Positions 5,935 to 56,344 of a stretch of 64,000 bases of DNA are shown piece after piece; the first letter of the stretch is position 1, and every line of letters starts with the position of its first letter. The stretch is from Marvania coccoides (lineage: Eukaryota; Chlorophyta; Trebouxiophyceae; Chlorellales; Chlorellaceae): positions 62,001 to 126,000 of the forward strand of contig OY978100.1 in NCBI GenBank assembly GCA_963854735.1, read 5' to 3'. The notes under the pieces were generated by a model. It was not told the DNA's origin, searched no databases, and was given only the letters and a program-made list of their open reading frames with translations. The translations under genes and the position numbers were made by a program.

Positions 5935-6782
5935 CTACCTCCCCATTTTCTGTTCCAAATCAGCTGGTAAAACTCTCACAATCTCGCCTCGCTGCGTCCC
6001 AGCCGCCAGCACGACAGCTTCTTCGCCAATCATACTGGCAGGAAAGGCTCGGCCACCGGTCACAAAGGGATGCCCAGCAGCGTTGTCCTTTCGAATCAGC
6101 GCAGCAATCCGCACCTGCAAGTTAAGGGGGGCGTGGGAATTCGTGGTAATGGCCAGACGAGGCGGTATTAGCTTAAAGCACAATACTCAACACAATACCA
6201 GTTACATAGACTGACCTCGTTGATTCGCTGCGGCTTGTCTTTGTGCTCCGCCTCCAGCGCACGAATGATGCCGTACAGCGCAGCGTTGCTGATGGTCAGC
6301 GCCGAGGCGTCGGGCATTGAACACCTTTCTCCAAGCATCCCGGTAATAAAAATGAAAGAGCTCCCGGGGGAGTCCTTCAACAAGGGAAACAGGGACTGGG
6401 CCAGCACCAGGTGGGGGGTTACCCTGTCGCCAACCACCTGCAACACGTCCTCAGGGGCCAGGGAGGAGCAGGGCCCGCTTTTAAACCCACCGCCAAAGGA
6501 AGAAACAATGTGGTCAAGGTGGGGCACCAGCTGGAGGACGTCGCCTGCCAGACGCCGCATGCCCTCTTGCGACGCAAACTCCCCCATGATAAGCACGTGC
6601 AGTTGGCTGAGTCGGTGGGCTTCCCCAACGTCGTGAAGCTCCGCCAGAAGAACGGCCTTGCTGTCATCGCTGCGCACAGGGGCAATCACGGTGGCACCCT
6701 CCAGCAGGAATTTGCGAACGATGCCGCTGCCAACGATGCCAGAACCGCCGGTGATGAGCGCGTTGCAGCCTTGCAGCCGCAT
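5935..6782 (-). CDS. Atypical short-chain dehydrogenase/reductase
   Basis: Two exons, 6216-6782 and 5935-6114, 248 residues. The Rossmann nucleotide-binding motif TGGSGIVG is at residues 11-18 and begins almost at the N terminus, so no targeting peptide is present. The expected YxxxK catalytic pair reads Y170-GII-R174: tyrosine kept, lysine replaced by arginine. The strand FIFITGML precedes it where SDRs place the catalytic serine, and no serine is obvious. The protein may bind a dinucleotide without being a standard oxidoreductase. Substrate is unknown. The intron (101 nt) has GTCAGT and TTGCAG borders. Confidence 0.8.
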
Positions 6783-7526
6783 TTTTTTTTTTTGTGAAAT
6801 CGATCTCGGGAAAACAACTTGAAAAAAAAATGTGTTTATAGCCAGTCGGATCTGGCTCTACATGTATTGTTCCTTTATTATTATTTTTTTTTTATTTATG
6901 ACAAATAATAAAAATACAGACCAAAAAAAATTGTCCAAGCATTCTGCTGGCGGCGGTGCAACGACGTCATCGCCCGTCTGACCTGAGCCCCGTTACCTGC
7001 ATTAAGTGGTCTAGTGCAACGCGAGCAAGGGCACTGGAGCTCATTGACTGGTGCAAACGACAACGCTGTCAGCGCTGCTCTTCCGCTGCTGTAATAAATG
7101 GTTTGTGACCCTGCCGTCGCTGTAAGCTCGACAATTTTTTCAAGACACGCAATAATGCCCCGCGGGAGCGCTTCCACTGCCAGCATACCAACCAGAGTTA
7201 TATTTTTCGTGTTCGAGGAGCTACAACCACATTCCCACTCCTCGTGTTGCCTGCTCATCATCGCTCCCGGAGTCCCTCCTTCTTCCTTTTCCCCGCCGTG
7301 GCTTCCCAGCCATATTCCGCTTGATTTCAAAATATAAAACACACAACCAGGTTGCTTATGCCTTGATGGGGATGGAAACGCGGAATGGTCAAAACTGTCC
7401 GTTGCATGGAGGCTTGTTTTCCCTGAGATGCTTTACACGATTTAGAAAGGTCGGTATTTGTTTTGAAGACTCTAAATCAAGCCGCTTTCGTGGCCATTTT
7501 CGCCTCGGGGCTCCACTCGCCCGTCG
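6783..7526. other. Spacer with one doubtful minus-strand open frame
   Basis: Mostly AT-rich with A/T runs. A 148-codon minus-strand frame (7342 down to 6896) includes GMLAVEALPRGIIACLEKI and two CxxC-like pairs, but has no homologue I recognise and ends in a repetitive aromatic tail. It could be an exon of a small gene or chance. Confidence 0.3.
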
Positions 7527-8400
7527 TCACACTGCCATCTTCAGCGATGCAAGGCCGCGCCTTGAAAGAATACTCAACGCCAGGGTGAGGCCGGCGACTG
7601 TGGTGAGCATGGTATTTTCCTCGACGTGGCTGCTCCACGTGCCGCTACCAGCGCGGCCCGCTACCCTGTACTGCAACTCCCAGAAGAAAGGCCCCGGCAG
7701 CCGCCCATCGGCGAAATGCGCCAGCCTCGAGCGCTTGCTGTCCGCGTTAATGGTGATGAAAGTAGCGCCCAGCTGGTACGCACGCACTCTCGGGAGCTGG
7801 GCGAGCCAGGCTGAGCGTGCATGGCTTTCTTGGGGCACCTGCTGCTGCCTCCGCTCCCGCACAGAGTAATCCCTCTCCTGGCGTTGCGCCCTCGTCCGGG
7901 CATCTTCTGCGCGCTCATAGGTGCGGAAAAAGCCTTGGCTGGGTCCGAAGACGCCGCCCCTGAAAAAAACGTCGTCAAACATGCTGCTGAAGGGAAGCCA
8001 CGTCCGCCAAAAATCTGCTCGAACACGTGGGCAGCAAAGTTGTGCAGGTCTTCATCGCGGTAGTGCATCTCGTGCTCCTCCCCGACGTCCTCATTCCTGA
8101 TGAGCATGTCGTAGCTGGCGGCAACCGCTTGAAAGTGCATTGTCGCAGCTTCGCGGGCTTCCGGCGGGTGCTTGTCTGGGTGCCAGAGCAGGCACATCCT
8201 GCGGTACGCGCTCTTAATTTGGTCTTCACCCGCTCCTTCCTTCAAACCCAGCAATGAACATGAATTTTATGAAAATGGTTAATTAATAACCATTTTCACG
8301 TTAATAGTGAGAATTTGTGGTCGTCAAACCTCCAAACCTCCAAACCGTTGCTCACCTCGATCTCCAAAATGGAGAGCGCTTCGCGGCGAGAGAGCTTCAT
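7527..8400 (-). pseudogene. DnaJ (J-domain) protein gene with an apparent frameshift
   Basis: Exon 1 (8356-8400) encodes MKLSRREALSILEIE. Exon 2 starts at 8239 and completes a J domain with the HPD triplet (LLWHPDKHP). The reading frame runs through the AAHVFEQIFGGRGF segment and then must change near 7982. From there a second frame opening MFDDVFFRGG runs on to a stop at 7527 and ends with a hydrophobic segment (TMLTTVAGLTLALSIL) and a basic tail, as in tail-anchored J proteins. In the first frame the sequence turns into low-complexity residues before a stop at 7661. No GT...AG pair nearby restores the frame. Either a sequencing or assembly error, or a recent mutation; otherwise the gene looks intact. 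Confidence 0.65.
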
Positions 8401-47913: not shown

Positions 47914-48665
47914 TTCGTCAAGCACAGAAAATAAATAGATTTCCCAATGCTGTTTTGCAGCCAAAATTAGAAAATTTGACAGTGAAATGCTTCCTGCATC
48001 CGCCACTGCTGTTGTTCTCTGCTGCCATTCCCAAGATTGTGCCAACGCCCATCAGATTCTCTTTCTTCCAAATATGATCCTAAAGTACACCGATCGCTAA
48101 AATTCTCTGCAGTGCTTCGCTGGGCACCTGGCCATAGCTCCTCTCCTCGACGGTGGAGACAGCAAGCCGTCAATCAATTGTGCCTGCCCGCCTGCCCTTC
48201 AAGTAGTAACGAGCACGAAGCGAACAGAAAGTATGCCGTCTCTCAAAATTAATATTTCTAGTTTGTATGACAAGAAAACACCTGAAGCCAGGAGGAGTTT
48301 CACCGCCTCGACACCGCCTGGAGCCTTTTCAGGCTGCATCGAAAGCGGATTTCCTGACTATATATGTAGATGCATCTCAGGGCCAATATTATCTCAATGA
48401 GTATACAATTAGTGGGGTTCAGTTCAACTTCTATGATTTGAACAAATTTTGAAATGAAAAAATTCACGGGAAAGCAAGAATCAGGCTTCCCAACCATTGG
48501 AAACGGAATATAGATCTCCTAAATTTATGAACATGGTATTGAGAAGCATTCATCAATGCGCAATTTATTTCGCTTGACAATTAACAAAATTTACAGGTCT
48601 TATTGAAGGTTTTATTGAAAATCCAAATGCATGCGCCATTTTAATCAATTTATTAAAAATATAAA
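47914..48665. promoter_or_regulatory. Divergent intergenic region between the F-box gene and GART
   Basis: About 750 bases holding both 5' flanks. A possible in-frame extension of the F-box protein upstream to 48045 exists (MAQSWEWQQR). The rest is AT-rich with no recognised feature. Confidence 0.4.
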
Positions 48666-49626
48666 ATGCAAATTGTTTGCTTTACCAAACTTCCGGCGAT
48701 CGGCCGATTTGCTCGACCAACAAATCATCATTTGAATTTTTCAGCAGGCCAGTTTTGCGCAATCGAGGCCTCCTGGCTGCCGCGACAAGCCGATGCTGCC
48801 AGCTGCCGCCCATCGCTGCACGTCAGGGCATCAGCCGCCACCCCTCCAGACGTCGGCACAGCAGCGCCGCCTCCTGCCCCACCACGAAAAAAACGGCTGG
48901 CTGTGTTCGTCTCAGGCGGGGGATCCAACTTCCGAGCCATCCACGCCCAGATTTTGGACGGCACAATCGATGCAGAGGTGGCAGCTGTCGTTACCAACGC
49001 CCCGACGTGCTCTGCTGCCGTCTACGCTGCCAGCCATCACATCCCTGTCATAGTCTACCCTGCGCCCAAAAGCGACCCCTCAGCTGGCCTCACATCGCAT
49101 GAGCTCGTTGACGCCATGTGCAGGGTAAGCCAGCCCTCGCCCAAACGCATCCTTCACTCACCCCCCCCCCCCCCCCCCCCGCACCCCGAACGGAAAACTA
49201 ATTATTTGGTTCCTCATTGTCCTTCAGACTCATGCCGTGGACTTTATTGTGCTAGCAGGCTACATGAAGCTGGTGCCCGCCGCCCTGGTGCGTTGCTTCC
49301 CCCGCGCCATGGTTAATATCCACCCAGGCCTGCTGCCTTCATTCGGCGGCAAAGGGTTCTACGGCAGTCGGGTGCACGCCGCTGTCATCGCCTCTGGCGC
49401 GCGTTTTTCAGGCCCCACGGTGCACTTTGTGGACGAGGAGTACGACACGGGGCCCATTCTGGCGCAAGCGGTGGTGCCAGTGCTGCCTACCGACTCGCCA
49501 GATGCTCTGGCTGGGCGAGTGCTGCAGGAGGAGCACCGGCTGTACCCAAAGTGCGTGGCGGCGGTGGTGGAGGGGCGGGTGACGTTCCGGCATGACGGCA
49601 TCCCCATCATATGGAGTGCGCACTGA
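48666..49626 (+). CDS. purN: Phosphoribosylglycinamide formyltransferase (GART, plastid)
   Basis: Two exons, 48666-49124 and 49228-49626, 285 residues. Transfers a formyl group from 10-formyl-tetrahydrofolate to GAR in purine synthesis. A transit peptide of about 70 residues precedes the core, which starts RLAVFVSGGGSNFRAI (P-loop-like phosphate-binding loop). The catalytic asparagine and histidine are in NIHPGLLPSF and the aspartate in EEYDTGPI. Plant GARTs are plastid enzymes, in agreement with the N terminus. The intron contains a C run of about 20 at 49161-49182. Confidence 0.93.
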
Positions 49627-49919: not shown

Positions 49920-52900
49920 ATGGCTGTCGAAGTGGCTATCGACCCGGACGCCAAGGCGTTTGCTGCACTGCAAGGAGCCACTATTGAGGAGAAAATCGAG
50001 ACCTCGATCCACAAAGACAAGTAAGCGAACCCCCTCGCGTTTAACTGCTGCTGAAATAAAGAAAGCGGCACCGTAGCTAGCCCACCTTTTCACCATCGTC
50101 CCACATATTTTCCGCCTCTGCAGGGTTGTCGTTTTTGGCCGCTCCACTTGCCCGTGAGTACAGATTTTTCAGCCGGACACCAAAACATATGCAATTCAAA
50201 TCTCTGCGCCACGTATTTCAAATCGCAACATATGGGTTTAATCATTGTTCTATACTGTTAACACATTTAGTTTTCTGCCACCGCCGCCGCCTCTTACCCG
50301 TCTCCTCTTCGCCCTTTCCCATACGTCCTTCCTCCCGTTAGGTTCTGCATAGAGGTGACCCGCACCCTGGCCGACCAGGGCGTGCACTTCACCTACTACC
50401 GCATCGACCTCTTCTCCGGCGATGTAGCGCAGCCCATCATGCACGAAGCGCTCAAGAACAAGACCAACCAGCGCACTGTGCCCTACGTCTACGTCAACGG
50501 CAACCTGCTGGGCGGATGCGACGCCACGAAGGCCCTCATCTCCACCGGCGAGTTCGACAAGCTGCTCGGCGCTGGGGGCGCTGCCAACGGTGAGGAGGCC
50601 GACCTAGAGAAGGGCCCTGCGGTGAAGACTGTGGGCGTCGATGTGGACTCCACCAAGATCATCGGCTCCCTCCTGGAGTTCCCCAACACAGTGGATGGCC
50701 GCGTCATTCGGTTGGTGGCCACCCAGGTCTTCACACTGGCCGTCATCATCGCCGCCACCGCCTTCAATGAAGACAAGAAGTGGCAGTGGCTGTCGGTGGC
50801 GCTGCTGGTGGATTTTTGCCTGCGCTTCTACGGCGGCGCCAGCATCTCCCCGCTGGGCAGCATTGCGATGTTTACTGTGGCCGTGTGGGACCTGATGGGA
50901 CCTCGCCTCTTCGGCCGCGTCACCGGGCCTGTGTGGGGCAGCGGCCCGCCGAAGCAGTTTGCGGTGGCTGTGGGCATTTTCTTCAGCGCCGTCGTCGTAG
51001 TTTTCCAGTTCACCGAGGTGTGGCAGGCGGCCAGCGTGTTTGCAGCGGTGCTGGCCTTCTTTGCCGCCCTGGAGGCCTTTGTCAACTTCTGCGCCGGCTG
51101 CTGGTGAGCAGGTTACCGCATTTGTTGCCATGCAGACCAATTTGTATTTAAATGGGCTTTCTCCTTCCTTTCCTCACTTCCTCAACTGTTTTTTTGAACT
51201 CTTCAAATTTTTCAAGGGTGTTCGGCTACGCCATCAAGTTTGGCATCATCCCCGACTCCATCTACATCGTCCACATCAACACCCTGCCCGAGACCAAGTA
51301 CACCTGGACCGAGTGGACCAAATTCGTCAACCCTACGCCCCCGGTGCGCAGCTCTCAGCAGTTCCGCGACCACGCCAAGAAAACTAAAATTGACCTGCAC
51401 TACAAGACGGGAAAGACCGACGATTGGGAGCGCGAAGACTTTGACTACGTCAAGCACTCCAAAATCGCGTTCTTCTCCGCGGTGGTGGGCGTCGCCGCCA
51501 TCCCCGCTCTGTTCAAGTTCATGGCCATGTCCCCTCGCTTTGCCACCCCCGACCTCGTGTGGCAGGTCCTCACGTTGCTGTCCCTCATTTTCACCACCTT
51601 CTTCACCCTGCCCTACGCCCTCAAGGCCATCAAGTACCCTCACAAGATCAGGCAGGAGTGGCAGCATCCCGCCATGAACAACGCGTTCAGCGTGCCCTCA
51701 ATGACGCTGGTGGTCTACGCCTTCCTGGCAGCAGGAAATTACTCCACAGCGCTGGCGCGCGTTCTCTTCTGGGCGGGATCTTCAACCGCCACCCTGTTGG
51801 CCCTGATCATTGTGGGAAATTGGCTGTCAACGCTGCGCCACGAGGGCCACCCTAACGGCGCGTGGCAGATGGCGCCCGTTGGCCTTTATATCTGCTCGGT
51901 GGTGGGACCCATTGTGGACCCCTCCTACACCCAGGTCTCCTACCTCTTCTTCGGCTTTGCCAGCATCATGTGCGTTGATGCAACCTTGAAATCTTGTTTT
52001 GAAACAGAGCGGAACAGGCTACCGAAGAAGCTATTTTTATTTACATGTTTATTTTATTTTCAAATGAAAATTTTTCAACCCTCCTCTCTTATCAACCAAC
52101 CAACGGGATGTTGCAGGTACATCACGCTGTTCGTCATGAACTTTATCCGCACCGCCGTGGGCCACAACGCCGACCCCAAAGCGCGGATGTTTGCCGCCAT
52201 TTGGATGGCAGCGCCCTCCGTCGCCTCCATCGCATGGACCGTACTGGTCAACACCGAGCTGGGCCAGCCTTACGTGATGGACCCCATAGCCAAGACGCTG
52301 TTCTACATTGGCGTTTCCATGGGGCTGCTCAACGTATGGATGGTGTGGCGGCGCTTCCTGTGGACTGACAAGTTCTTCATGCAGATGTGGGCGTTCGGCT
52401 TCCCCACCGCCGCGCTGGCCTGGGCGGCTGTGCTATACGACACAACCATACAGACTGCACTCTCAAAGGTCCTGGCGTCCTGCCTCATCGCATTGGCCTC
52501 CATGGTTGCCCTCACCCTCACAGTGAGTCACTGCCAATGCGGTATGCTGCAGTGCGCAACGCCTTGCTTTGATGGTAATACTAATATTACGCATTTTTTT
52601 CCTCGTGCAGTTCCGTACTTTCGGTGGCGTGGCTCGCATGAAGGTCTTCGTGCCGGAGCACAAGTAAGTTTCAAATTCGCTTGCAAAAATCAAATTATAA
52701 GCATGCACCCATTTTCGACTTCTTGTACTCTTCTTAAATGCGCAGGTGGGGTCCCATGAGCCACCTCCCCCTCGCCCAGGAGGCCATGCGTGCCCTGCTA
52801 CAGCGCATCACCTCCGCAGCAGATTCGCTGGCTGACGACCCCTCTAACACCAGACTGGCCGCCTCTTTGCGTTCCAACTGGTGTACCTTCACCACCATCA

Positions 52901-53648
52901 ACTCCTTCTACTCCTACATCAAGCGTGAGGTTTGCTTTGCGCGCATTGGCAACTTCTTCCCGGGACACCAGGCCGAGGCCCAGGCCAACAACGCCAAGAT
53001 GATCGAGGAGCAGCAGAAGATCGACGCAATGGTCGCTGCTGGGCCCAAGGCCGATCCCGCCGCTTTCAAGAACGCGATCGCGGACTTTGCGTCCCTGGCG
53101 CGTACAACCTTTGACCACGTTGAAGGTAGGCTTGCTTAATGCATTTTTATGCGGGCTTTAATGCCCTGCGAATGCGATTTGTGTTCAGCAGCGTCCATAG
53201 CGTCTCAAACAATTTCTTTTTTATTTTGTTGCAGACCACATCAGGCCTATCATGCGGCGCTACGTGCCCGGACCCCTGCAGGTGAAAATCATGGTGGACT
53301 GCTGGGATCTGGGGGAGGAGAAGGGCGATGCTGCCTGGTGGGCTGTGCTACCTGCTGTCGTGTCGGCGCTCCCCATGCAGGGCCAGCGCCTGACCTACCT
53401 GCGCGCTTTCCTGTGGGCTATGCCAGCACGGTGCCAGCAGATTGGCACCATGGTAGCCCTGGGCGTGGATCCTGTTACTTGGTAAGACTTTATGTTTTCG
53501 ACGAGGATGCTGCATTATAAACAATGGTTATTTAATTGATTTTTTACCGAGTTTCATTTTTGTTTTTTTGCATCTTTTCAGGTATCGCCTGAAGCATGCA
53601 ATGCCTGAGATCATCCCCCGCGGCGAGGAGGGCTGGAAGCGCTTCTGA
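49920..53648 (+). CDS. Glutaredoxin / DUF4395 / SLAC1-TehA (TDT) / hemerythrin-like four-domain fusion
   Basis: Nine exons: 49920-50020, 50124-50153, 50342-51103, 51217-51969, 52117-52522, 52611-52663, 52746-53125, 53235-53481 and 53582-53648, total 2799 nt and 932 residues, every junction in frame. Glutaredoxin: CPFC at residues 43-46, TVP at 89-91 and GGCD at 101-104. DUF4395: about 161-303, starting VDGRVIRLVATQVF, with DFCLRFY, SPLGS and CAGCW. TDT/SLAC1-TehA channel fold: about 365-690 (YPHKIRQEWQHP, MFAAIWMAAPSVASIAW, WAFGFPTAALAW). HHE-like domain: about 705-930, with NFFPGH, DHVEDHIRP (H826, D829, H830) and the PEIIPRGEEGWKRF ending. Several iron-ligand histidines of true hemerythrins are missing. 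Inferred as a redox- or oxygen-responsive anion transporter; substrate and membrane are unknown, and no targeting peptide is obvious. Confidence 0.88.
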
Positions 53649-54786: not shown

Positions 54787-56344
54787 ATGCTCTCATCAAG
54801 TTGGACAGCCCTGCGGCCCGGCGCAGCCTCCCTAGCCGCAAGACCGTTACCTCCGACTCTAAGTTACACATCGCGTCTCTCTTTTCCGCGGCGGCCCATC
54901 GTGGCAGCGTCCAAGAAGCCCCCCAATCAGCAATCAAAACATTTTTACGACAGGGAGAAGGAGATTGGCACTCTTATGGGTACGCTTGACCGCAAGCCAA
55001 CAGAACTTCGTGTATTTATTGGTCCAAGAAACGCCGGCAAGTCGGTAAGGTTTTTTATTTTGCTGTAAATCTTCTGCGCATTCTCTAAGGCAAGCAATTC
55101 TGTTGAATTCATTTGGCTCAGGCAATTTTCAAAGAAATAGCGCGGAGGAGGCTTGCTGCCCAGAGCGTCGCAGGCGAGGGCCCCCCTCCAGTTCTCATAC
55201 TTAACGCCCGCGTGAAAGACGTGAGCTCTCCCCTGCAGCTGTCAAGGAACCTGAAGGAGCTCATTCTCAAGGACGCGAATCTGCAGAAATGGTGGGAGTG
55301 GCCGGTTCATGCGGAGAGCTTGAACCTCACTCTGCCTGGCGTGGAACTGAAAACATTTTTCCAGGAGGCTGCAAGCAAATCGCCAATGGACTCCATCATC
55401 GCATCGTTAACGGCTTTCCTAGAAGCAGTGCGGCCGCTGCCTGCCAAGCCTGTTTTTATCATTGACGAGGCCAACCTGCTGATGAACTGGACTGAGGAAG
55501 GCGAGGGGAACCCTGAGCTGCAGAAGCTGCTGCACTTTGTGGTTTCAGCGACCAAAGAAGAGCAGCTGGCGCACTTTTTGATGGTAACCTCGGATAACTT
55601 TTTAGTGTCCTGGCTCATGAAAAGCAAGTCGATCATAAAAGGGATGGGGGGTCCGCTGTGTTTCAAATTCATTTTTTTAAACCCTCATAATGCCCCAATA
55701 TTTGTTTCATTCCCCATTTTTGCATTGCAGAGGGCTTGTCTAGCGGCCAGTTCACCGTGGATGTCATAGGGGACTTGCCCACTGAGCATGAAGCACGGCT
55801 GTTTGTGGAGGATCTCGCCAGCTCTGGTGATGGGCTGCCGCTGACCACGGCTGACGACGAGGTGGATACGTGGGACAAGGTGTACGGCGTGTGCGGAGGA
55901 AATATCGGGCTGCTGCAGCAGTGCGCCAGCGCGGCCATGGCTTGGGGCTGGGAGAACGCTTCGGACAGCATTCTTAGGATTGCTGCAGCAGAGGTTGAAG
56001 CCGGTTTAGAACCCGAGGTACACATGACAAGCAACAGGCGTGCGCCCCCAGCATGGACTGCAGAGCAGTTCAAGACCGTGCTGCGTGCGATTGCGCGCTC
56101 GCCGCCGTACCATGCCGTTTTCGAGGCCGATTTGAAGAAGAAGCTTGGCAGCACTGCGCTGATGTCGTTGGTGGAGTGGGTCAAGGTGGCGCTGCGGCCT
56201 TACTCTGCCCTGGCTGAAGACCTGCCGGCGGAAGTGTGGGGCGATGACAAGCTGGCCAGGGTTTATACCATGCCATCGCGTGCTCATCTGAACTACGTGC
56301 TGAAGATGGATGCAGCTGGCGAGCTGGAGACGGCGGGTAGCTGA
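54787..56344 (+). CDS. Organelle-targeted archaeal-type P-loop ATPase
   Basis: Three exons: 54787-55044, 55122-55650 and 55731-56344, 466 residues. The N terminus (about 1-45) is a serine, arginine and proline-rich targeting peptide. The Walker A motif GPRNAGKS ends exon 1 and Walker B is VFIIDEAN in exon 2, followed by a sensor-like strand (FLMVTSDNFLVSWLM) and a lid region (VIGDLPTEHEARLF). The order matches archaeal ATPase (Arch_ATPase/STAND-like) proteins, which plants and algae carry as organellar versions of unknown role. The winged-helix-like C terminus starts near WTAEQFKTVLRAIARSPPY. The exon 2 donor (ATGGGGG|GTCCGC) was chosen to restore phase with exon 3. Confidence 0.75.

Follow-up and report, generated by a model that had tools for sequence, protein, structure and literature searches.

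A Green-Algal Protein Family Joining Glutaredoxin, DUF4395, SLAC1 and Hemerythrin-Type Domains, With a Member Lacking Diiron Ligands in Marvania coccoides

Gene Structure and Domain Content

The DNA analyzed here, called the window, is a stretch of 64,000 nucleotides (nt) from the green alga Marvania coccoides (assembly GCA_963854735.1, contig OY978100.1, positions 62,001 to 126,000). Positions 49920..53648 of its forward strand hold a gene with nine exons (49920-50020, 50124-50153, 50342-51103, 51217-51969, 52117-52522, 52611-52663, 52746-53125, 53235-53481, and 53582-53648), which join in frame into a protein of 932 amino acids (aa). A first-pass annotation had read this region as a single gene encoding a four-domain fusion. 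Coordinates, strand and exon count were reproduced, and the fusion is borne out by Pfam, by a structure model of the closest full-length ortholog (P0001) and by many relatives. All eight introns are GT-AG. Among relatives of the clade that contains the window's protein (clade A, see below), six of the eight junctions are free of gaps in 25/25 sequences, and the two early junctions at aa 34 and aa 44 are gapless in 12/16 and 13/17 of those that reach there. Chance in-frame assembly of the chain is ruled out by the full-length relatives. An ATG in intron 3 (51152..51154, forward strand) is in frame with exon 4 (stop-to-stop frame 51152-52759); it is a possible but unsupported alternative start, from which a shorter extra transcript may arise.

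Glutaredoxin, DUF4395 and TDT/SLAC1 domains, all named in the first-pass annotation, were each detected above the curated cut-off in a Pfam scan of the whole protein. The glutaredoxin domain (aa 35-99, 50125..50507, E 1.2e-12) has the active site C43-P-F-C46, which is split by intron 2 (cysteine codons 50149-50151 and 50346-50348), and is followed by TVP (aa 89-91) and GGCD (aa 101-104), motifs which we take to be those for glutathione binding. The profile match, the CPxC site, the TVP and GG motifs and the fold seen in P0001 place it among class I dithiol glutaredoxins; NCBIfam glutaredoxin models also match, below their cut-offs. The DUF4395 membrane module (PF14340, aa 161-302, 50691..51229, E 2e-19, 70.7 bits against a cut-off of 24.5) contains the motif FC294-A-G-C297 (cysteine codons 51090-51092 and 51099-51101), whose CxxC is kept in 60/60 algal rows. 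The structure-model comparison of P0001 returned no row for this part, such parts being barely covered there. The SLAC1/TehA channel domain (PF03595, aa 380-687, 51461..52619, E 4.5e-28, 98.8 bits against a cut-off of 27.9) shows the ten-helix SLAC1/TehA fold in the P0001 model. It matches the NCBIfam tdt model at E 7.8e-22, yet below that model's own cut-off. F644 (codon 52400-52402) aligns, in an alignment counted by hand, with AtSLAC1 F450, presumably the pore gate phenylalanine; it is Phe in 60 of 61 rows and Leu in P0059.

The remainder of the chain consists of a hemerythrin-like four-helix domain without diiron ligands (~aa 703-833, 52747..53248) and a conserved helical tail (~aa 834-932, 53249..53645), which contains C851 (53300-53302) and C895 (53432-53434) and ends in PEIIPRGxxGWKRF. 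The Pfam hemerythrin family (PF01814) matched neither the whole chain nor its 238-residue C-terminal piece, and the window's protein has no Pfam match to a rhodanese domain.

A Conserved Family in Green Algae

At least 62 distinct relatives were found, 30 in a first protein search, 23 in a search with the paralog described below and 10 in a search with a 15-row alignment, one of which had already been seen; about 8000 candidates were scored in each relative search, and the total is a lower bound. The full-length relatives P0001, P0002, P0010, P0014, and P0016 share 61-70% identity with the window's protein over 99-100% of its length, with P0001 and P0002 at 69-70%. The named sources are all green algae: Nannochloris sp. 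'desiccata', Micractinium conductrix, Micractinium sp., Raphidocelis subcapitata, Myrmecia bisecta, Gonium pectorale, Chlamydomonas incerta, and C. schloesseri. According to precomputed annotation, 11 of the 62 listed proteins carry all four Pfam domains (P0028, P0039, P0047, P0051, P0054, P0055, and P0057-P0061), and the same architecture, which the first-pass annotation had proposed looking for in other algal genomes, is thus present there. P0054 is an assembled MMETSP transcript with an open reading frame of 944 aa marked complete; hence, at least one relative has been seen as a single message. In 13 of the 30 relatives from the first search, the predicted models have no glutaredoxin domain. 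Profile scans (A4, A1) of genome contigs and viral contigs found no conserved stretch.

The four-domain set is, on these matches, a conserved green-algal family and no one-off. The first-pass annotation had not known the full set in one chain; this agrees with the Creative Commons-licensed PMC literature, in which no published description of the domain combination was found, but the set is not peculiar to this gene. The parts belong to known families, and their combination in one chain appears to be undescribed.

A Second Copy in the Genome

A loose, exon-wise six-frame search of the 22.46-Mb assembly (15 contigs), in which small exons could be missed, found DUF4395 together with SLAC1 in two genes only, the window's and a second gene at 6563 to 2794 on the minus strand of contig C6. 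The latter (copy B) has seven exons and one GC-AG intron and encodes 986 aa in the same domain order. Its DUF4395, SLAC1 and hemerythrin domains score above the Pfam cut-off, its glutaredoxin has the site CAYS and falls below the cut-off, and its diiron motif H-HxxxE-H-HxxxE is intact. The two proteins are 29% identical in SLAC1 and 15% in the hemerythrin-type (HHE) module. On either side of the paralog, at 2086-2695 and 7307-7919 (L010, G000:C6), there are direct repeats that are almost identical (97% over 300 nt, 98% over 103 nt), as if a neighboring stretch had been duplicated around the gene.

Both kinds of relative occur in Nannochloris (P0002, P0032) and in Micractinium conductrix (P0017, P0037). 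In a quick tree built from the DUF4395 and SLAC1 columns of 61 rows (three of 64 were too short), the 27 clade-A rows form one group with a support of 100 in the Shimodaira-Hasegawa-like approximate likelihood ratio test (SH-aLRT). Two Raphidocelis proteins, P0027 and P0029, adjoin clade A (SH-aLRT 93, branch not starred). Copies A and B placed together as one trebouxiophyte-only duplication clade gave a p-value of 0.41 in the approximately unbiased test (p-AU).

Loss of the Diiron Ligands

The first-pass annotation had recognized an HHE domain in the C-terminal part. Pfam did not detect it in the window's protein itself, but the assignment holds on three other grounds. A profile of the C-termini of clade A (23 rows) aligns with that of the other rows (30) over 230 columns at E 2.7e-60; 11 of 64 proteins were left out of this alignment for a missing start motif or a short piece, including P0027 and P0029. 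The P0001 model shows a hemerythrin-type four-helix bundle in this region. Moreover, relatives of the same layout match Pfam hemerythrin (copy B at 29.3 bits and P0028 at 32.4 bits against a cut-off of 25.3); the ligand-poor P0029 stays below it at 19.1 bits.

Most relatives, like copy B, keep the motif H-HxxxE-H-HxxxE intact. All six ligand positions are substituted in the window's protein: Q713 (52777-52779), Y757 (52909-52911), K761 (52921-52923), N784 (52990-52992), T823 (53107-53109), and V827 (53119-53121). Earlier, several ligands had been reported as lost, with H708, H826, and H830 remaining; the loss is real but was understated, and the three histidines lie outside the ligand columns and are variable, being His in 15, 11, and 16 of 26 clade-A rows. 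At least five of six ligands are missing in each of these 26 rows, and Q, Y, and K have become fixed at three of the positions; His is kept at the third ligand position in two rows and at the fourth in one. Four of six ligands are missing in P0027 and P0029. If clade A and these two proteins are both scored as dead, the dead state needs one change, with P0050 and P0062 (region missing) left out and the partly decayed P0046 counted as intact. In P0046 (Myrmecia bisecta), which lies outside clade A, the glutamate of the first HxxxE aligns with Ala and the third histidine with Ile, apparently an independent decay.

In the related protein BTSL2, Glu-to-Ala changes at such sites abolished iron binding (PMC12022348). 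Sensing of O2 or NO, which had been put forward for the window's protein, is unlikely, because both HxxxE glutamates (by Lys and Val) and all four histidines are replaced; the idea would fit the paralog on contig C6 instead.

Cysteines are fixed or nearly fixed in this module and the tail. C765 (52933-52935), four residues past the lost glutamate, is present in 26/26 clade-A rows and 0/34 others, C851 in 26/26 and C895 in 25/26 clade-A rows. A second CPFC motif occurs near residue 880, in the region of the metal-free bundle, in P0011, P0017, and P0024. The sequence of P0017 (Micractinium conductrix) contains a complete additional glutaredoxin within the dead bundle, and the motif position suggests the same for P0011 and P0024. 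These cysteines and the second CPFC motif hint that metal chemistry gave way to thiol chemistry in clade A.

DUF4395 in Bacteria

Two sets of bacterial DUF4395 loci were considered. The first comprises 36 loci, 29 of them from the 30 best matches of a 296-genome survey (96 positive genomes) and seven from seed genomes. The CxxC is present in all 35 frames that the Pfam search found there (first match CLGC in 33, CVGC and CRCC in one each). A thioredoxin (15) and/or rhodanese (7) match, searched with one query each, lies within 1.5 kb in 16 of the 36 loci. At locus L103, Pfam thioredoxin and rhodanese matches stand on opposite sides of DUF4395, the only two of that kind among ten neighbor frames. 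The second set, seeded from Tsukamurella, has C-x-G-C in 80/80 loci but was partly seeded with that motif. Bacterial DUF4395 proteins have C-x-G-C in common with the algal fusion. They are mostly short frames in the loci examined, some of which include a thioredoxin-fold partner, whereas in the algae a glutaredoxin is built into the chain. At E 1e-3, the algal profiles for SLAC1 and glutaredoxin had no match next to DUF4395 in the 80 and 36 loci. Plasmid searches for DUF4395 gave one record from the algal and three from the bacterial query.

Comparison With Known Systems

The closest solved structures to the channel part by sequence are the plant SLAH/SLAC1 channels. Identity to plant SLAC1/SLAH and bacterial TehA is 15-20%, and in contrast to these proteins, the window's protein unites its channel in a single chain with an N-terminal glutaredoxin and DUF4395 and with a hemerythrin-type module at the C-terminus. 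Its glutaredoxin differs from class I (CPYC/CPFC) glutaredoxins such as Arabidopsis GrxC5 and wheat Grx in being tethered to a membrane protein; that of copy B departs further, with its CxxS site and sub-threshold Pfam score.

The HHE-intact relatives have the diiron motif in common with BRUTUS/HRZ and FBXL5. Their profile finds FBXL5 as the best PDB match (E 2.8e-7), followed by ScdA and YtfE (E 3e-4 to 5e-3), and the first part of their tail can be aligned with what follows the HHE of a BRUTUS-like frame in the M. coccoides genome. In BRUTUS/HRZ and FBXL5, the module belongs to a ubiquitin ligase; here, it is joined to a channel, and the window's copy lacks the ligands. Pfam found no CHY zinc finger, RING or F-box in the window's protein, six relatives or copy B; membership in the same family as the BRUTUS-type ubiquitin ligases was rejected for want of a CHY zinc finger or RING match. 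By its motifs, the window's protein is not a hemerythrin and not a BRUTUS-type ligase. Elsewhere in the genome, a minus-strand frame (L007, G000:C10) carries two or more HHE units along with cysteine-rich sequence of zinc-finger type. Going by the HHE alignment, we take it to be BRUTUS-like and possibly this alga's iron-sensing ubiquitin ligase.

A Possible Redox-Controlled Anion Channel

That one conserved chain combines a class I dithiol glutaredoxin, DUF4395 with a CxxC, a ten-helix SLAC1 pore and a hemerythrin-type module with tail is seen directly or strongly supported. From this, we propose that the window's protein is an anion channel or transporter of the SLAC1/TehA fold that contains its own control domains and is the redox-only one of the two members that this genome has of a green-algal family, a reading for which the chances seem evenly balanced. 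Redox-linked control is plausible, since the CPFC glutaredoxin with TVP and GGCD and the DUF4395 CxxC are retained. The cytosolic glutaredoxin would read the glutathione redox state and pass it to target thiols, which might be the CxxC of DUF4395 beside the membrane, the cysteines fixed in the tail and the former HHE module, or both, and the state of these thiols would then set pore opening. Gating and substrate are conjectural, with nitrate, chloride, malate and sulfite as candidates.

The ancestral channel may have had a second, diiron input responding to iron, O2 or peroxide. BTS-type diiron sites react with O2 and H2O2 (PMC12022348). The HHE-intact relatives would keep such an input, and the window's lineage would have lost it but retained the bundle, either as a scaffold free of metal or as a thiol switch. 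The full scenario, in which a two-input channel was duplicated, the window's copy became a metal-free thiol switch and the other copy held on to its ligands, with both perhaps integrated in one mixed trimer, is speculative and rather unlikely to hold in its entirety. If true, an anion channel would itself contain the domains that read thiol and iron/oxygen chemistry directly, whereas plant SLAC1 depends on phosphorylation for its activation (PMC11432348). It would also give the uncharacterized membrane family DUF4395 a concrete role beside thioredoxin-fold proteins. A natural paralog pair with and without metal ligands bears on how a hemerythrin sensor affects its target, and relatives in Chlamydomonas and Gonium make the family accessible near a genetic model.

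Several observations weigh against redox control and against a division of labor between the copies. The DUF4395 CxxC could be structural. No thioredoxin or rhodanese match lies within 4 kb in any of the 80 loci of the Tsukamurella-seeded set, so the association with these proteins belongs to part of the DUF4395 family. C851 and C895 also occur in 6/33 and 3/33 other rows, which leaves C765 as the only clade-specific cysteine. Mean identity within clade A is lower in HHE (53%) than in SLAC1 (67%) or the tail (74%), as would also be expected of a mere spacer; in clade B, it is 64% in HHE and 63% in SLAC1. Taken by itself, the C-terminal profile of clade A fails to match the BRUTUS-like units (hhalign probability 1.7 and 13). 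Furthermore, a live HHE goes only loosely with a weakened glutaredoxin. Ser takes the place of the second active-site cysteine in 8 of 12 clade-B rows, but the cysteine is kept in 10 of 14 other rows, and the ligand-poor Raphidocelis P0027 carries CPYS and CPYT. A partition in which one copy lost redox and the other lost iron is thus only a tendency in the sequences compared.

Alternative Explanations

Some TDT proteins, such as yeast Ssu1, export sulfite. The window's protein could accordingly be a sulfur-handling exporter in which the glutaredoxin and the DUF4395 CxxC carry out persulfide or thiol chemistry and the TDT domain, instead of responding to the redox state, exports a product, e.g., sulfite. 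The thioredoxin- and/or rhodanese-type genes near DUF4395 in 16/36 bacterial loci point this way, but the association is confined to one of the two bacterial sets (0/80 in the other), the fusion has no rhodanese and the channel part is closest to plant SLAH/SLAC1 structures; we regard such an exporter as improbable, though worth keeping in mind. A mixed channel is about as improbable. Here, the window's copy and the diiron paralog would share one trimer, one reading thiol redox and the other iron or oxygen, in line with two complete paralogs in this genome, both kinds in Nannochloris and Micractinium conductrix, and mixed SLAH1/SLAH3 trimers of plants among PDB entries (9m7s and 9m7w, by their titles). 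The low identity between the paralogs in SLAC1 and HHE speaks against it. Less probable still is a nitrogen version, in which the intact HHE would work next to a nitrate/nitrite channel as an NO sensor or a nitrite reductase in the manner of YtfE, with the window's copy as a non-enzymatic form. ScdA and YtfE are among the PDB matches of the HHE profile, and YtfE is a nitrite reductase according to the title of PMC9052748. However, FBXL5 scores better, and the alignment of the module with BRUTUS-like HHE units extends into part of the segment that follows these units.

Two further possibilities are very improbable. The HHE module of the window's protein might still sense O2, NO or iron through a non-canonical site formed by the histidines at 708, 826, and 830, but their variability and position off the ligand columns, together with the Lys and Val in place of the HxxxE glutamates, make this hard to sustain. 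Hardest of all to maintain is that a wrong gene model joined two neighboring genes, one for glutaredoxin and DUF4395 and one for SLAC1 and HHE. The in-frame ATG in intron 3 and the 13 of 30 relatives whose models lack the glutaredoxin would agree with such a split; against it stand full-length relatives from other genomes and contigs, the P0054 transcript with its four domains and the conserved junctions.

Neighboring Genes

Upstream of the fusion gene, a formyltransferase gene, probably of the PurN type, occupies window positions 48665-49626 (Formyl_trans_N, E 2.5e-34, frame 49129-49623), with a run of C at ~49162-49180 in an apparent intron. The downstream neighbor at 54787-56344 may encode a P-loop ATPase, with a weak ATPase_2 match in the frame 55107-55766 (E 7e-4, below the cut-off).
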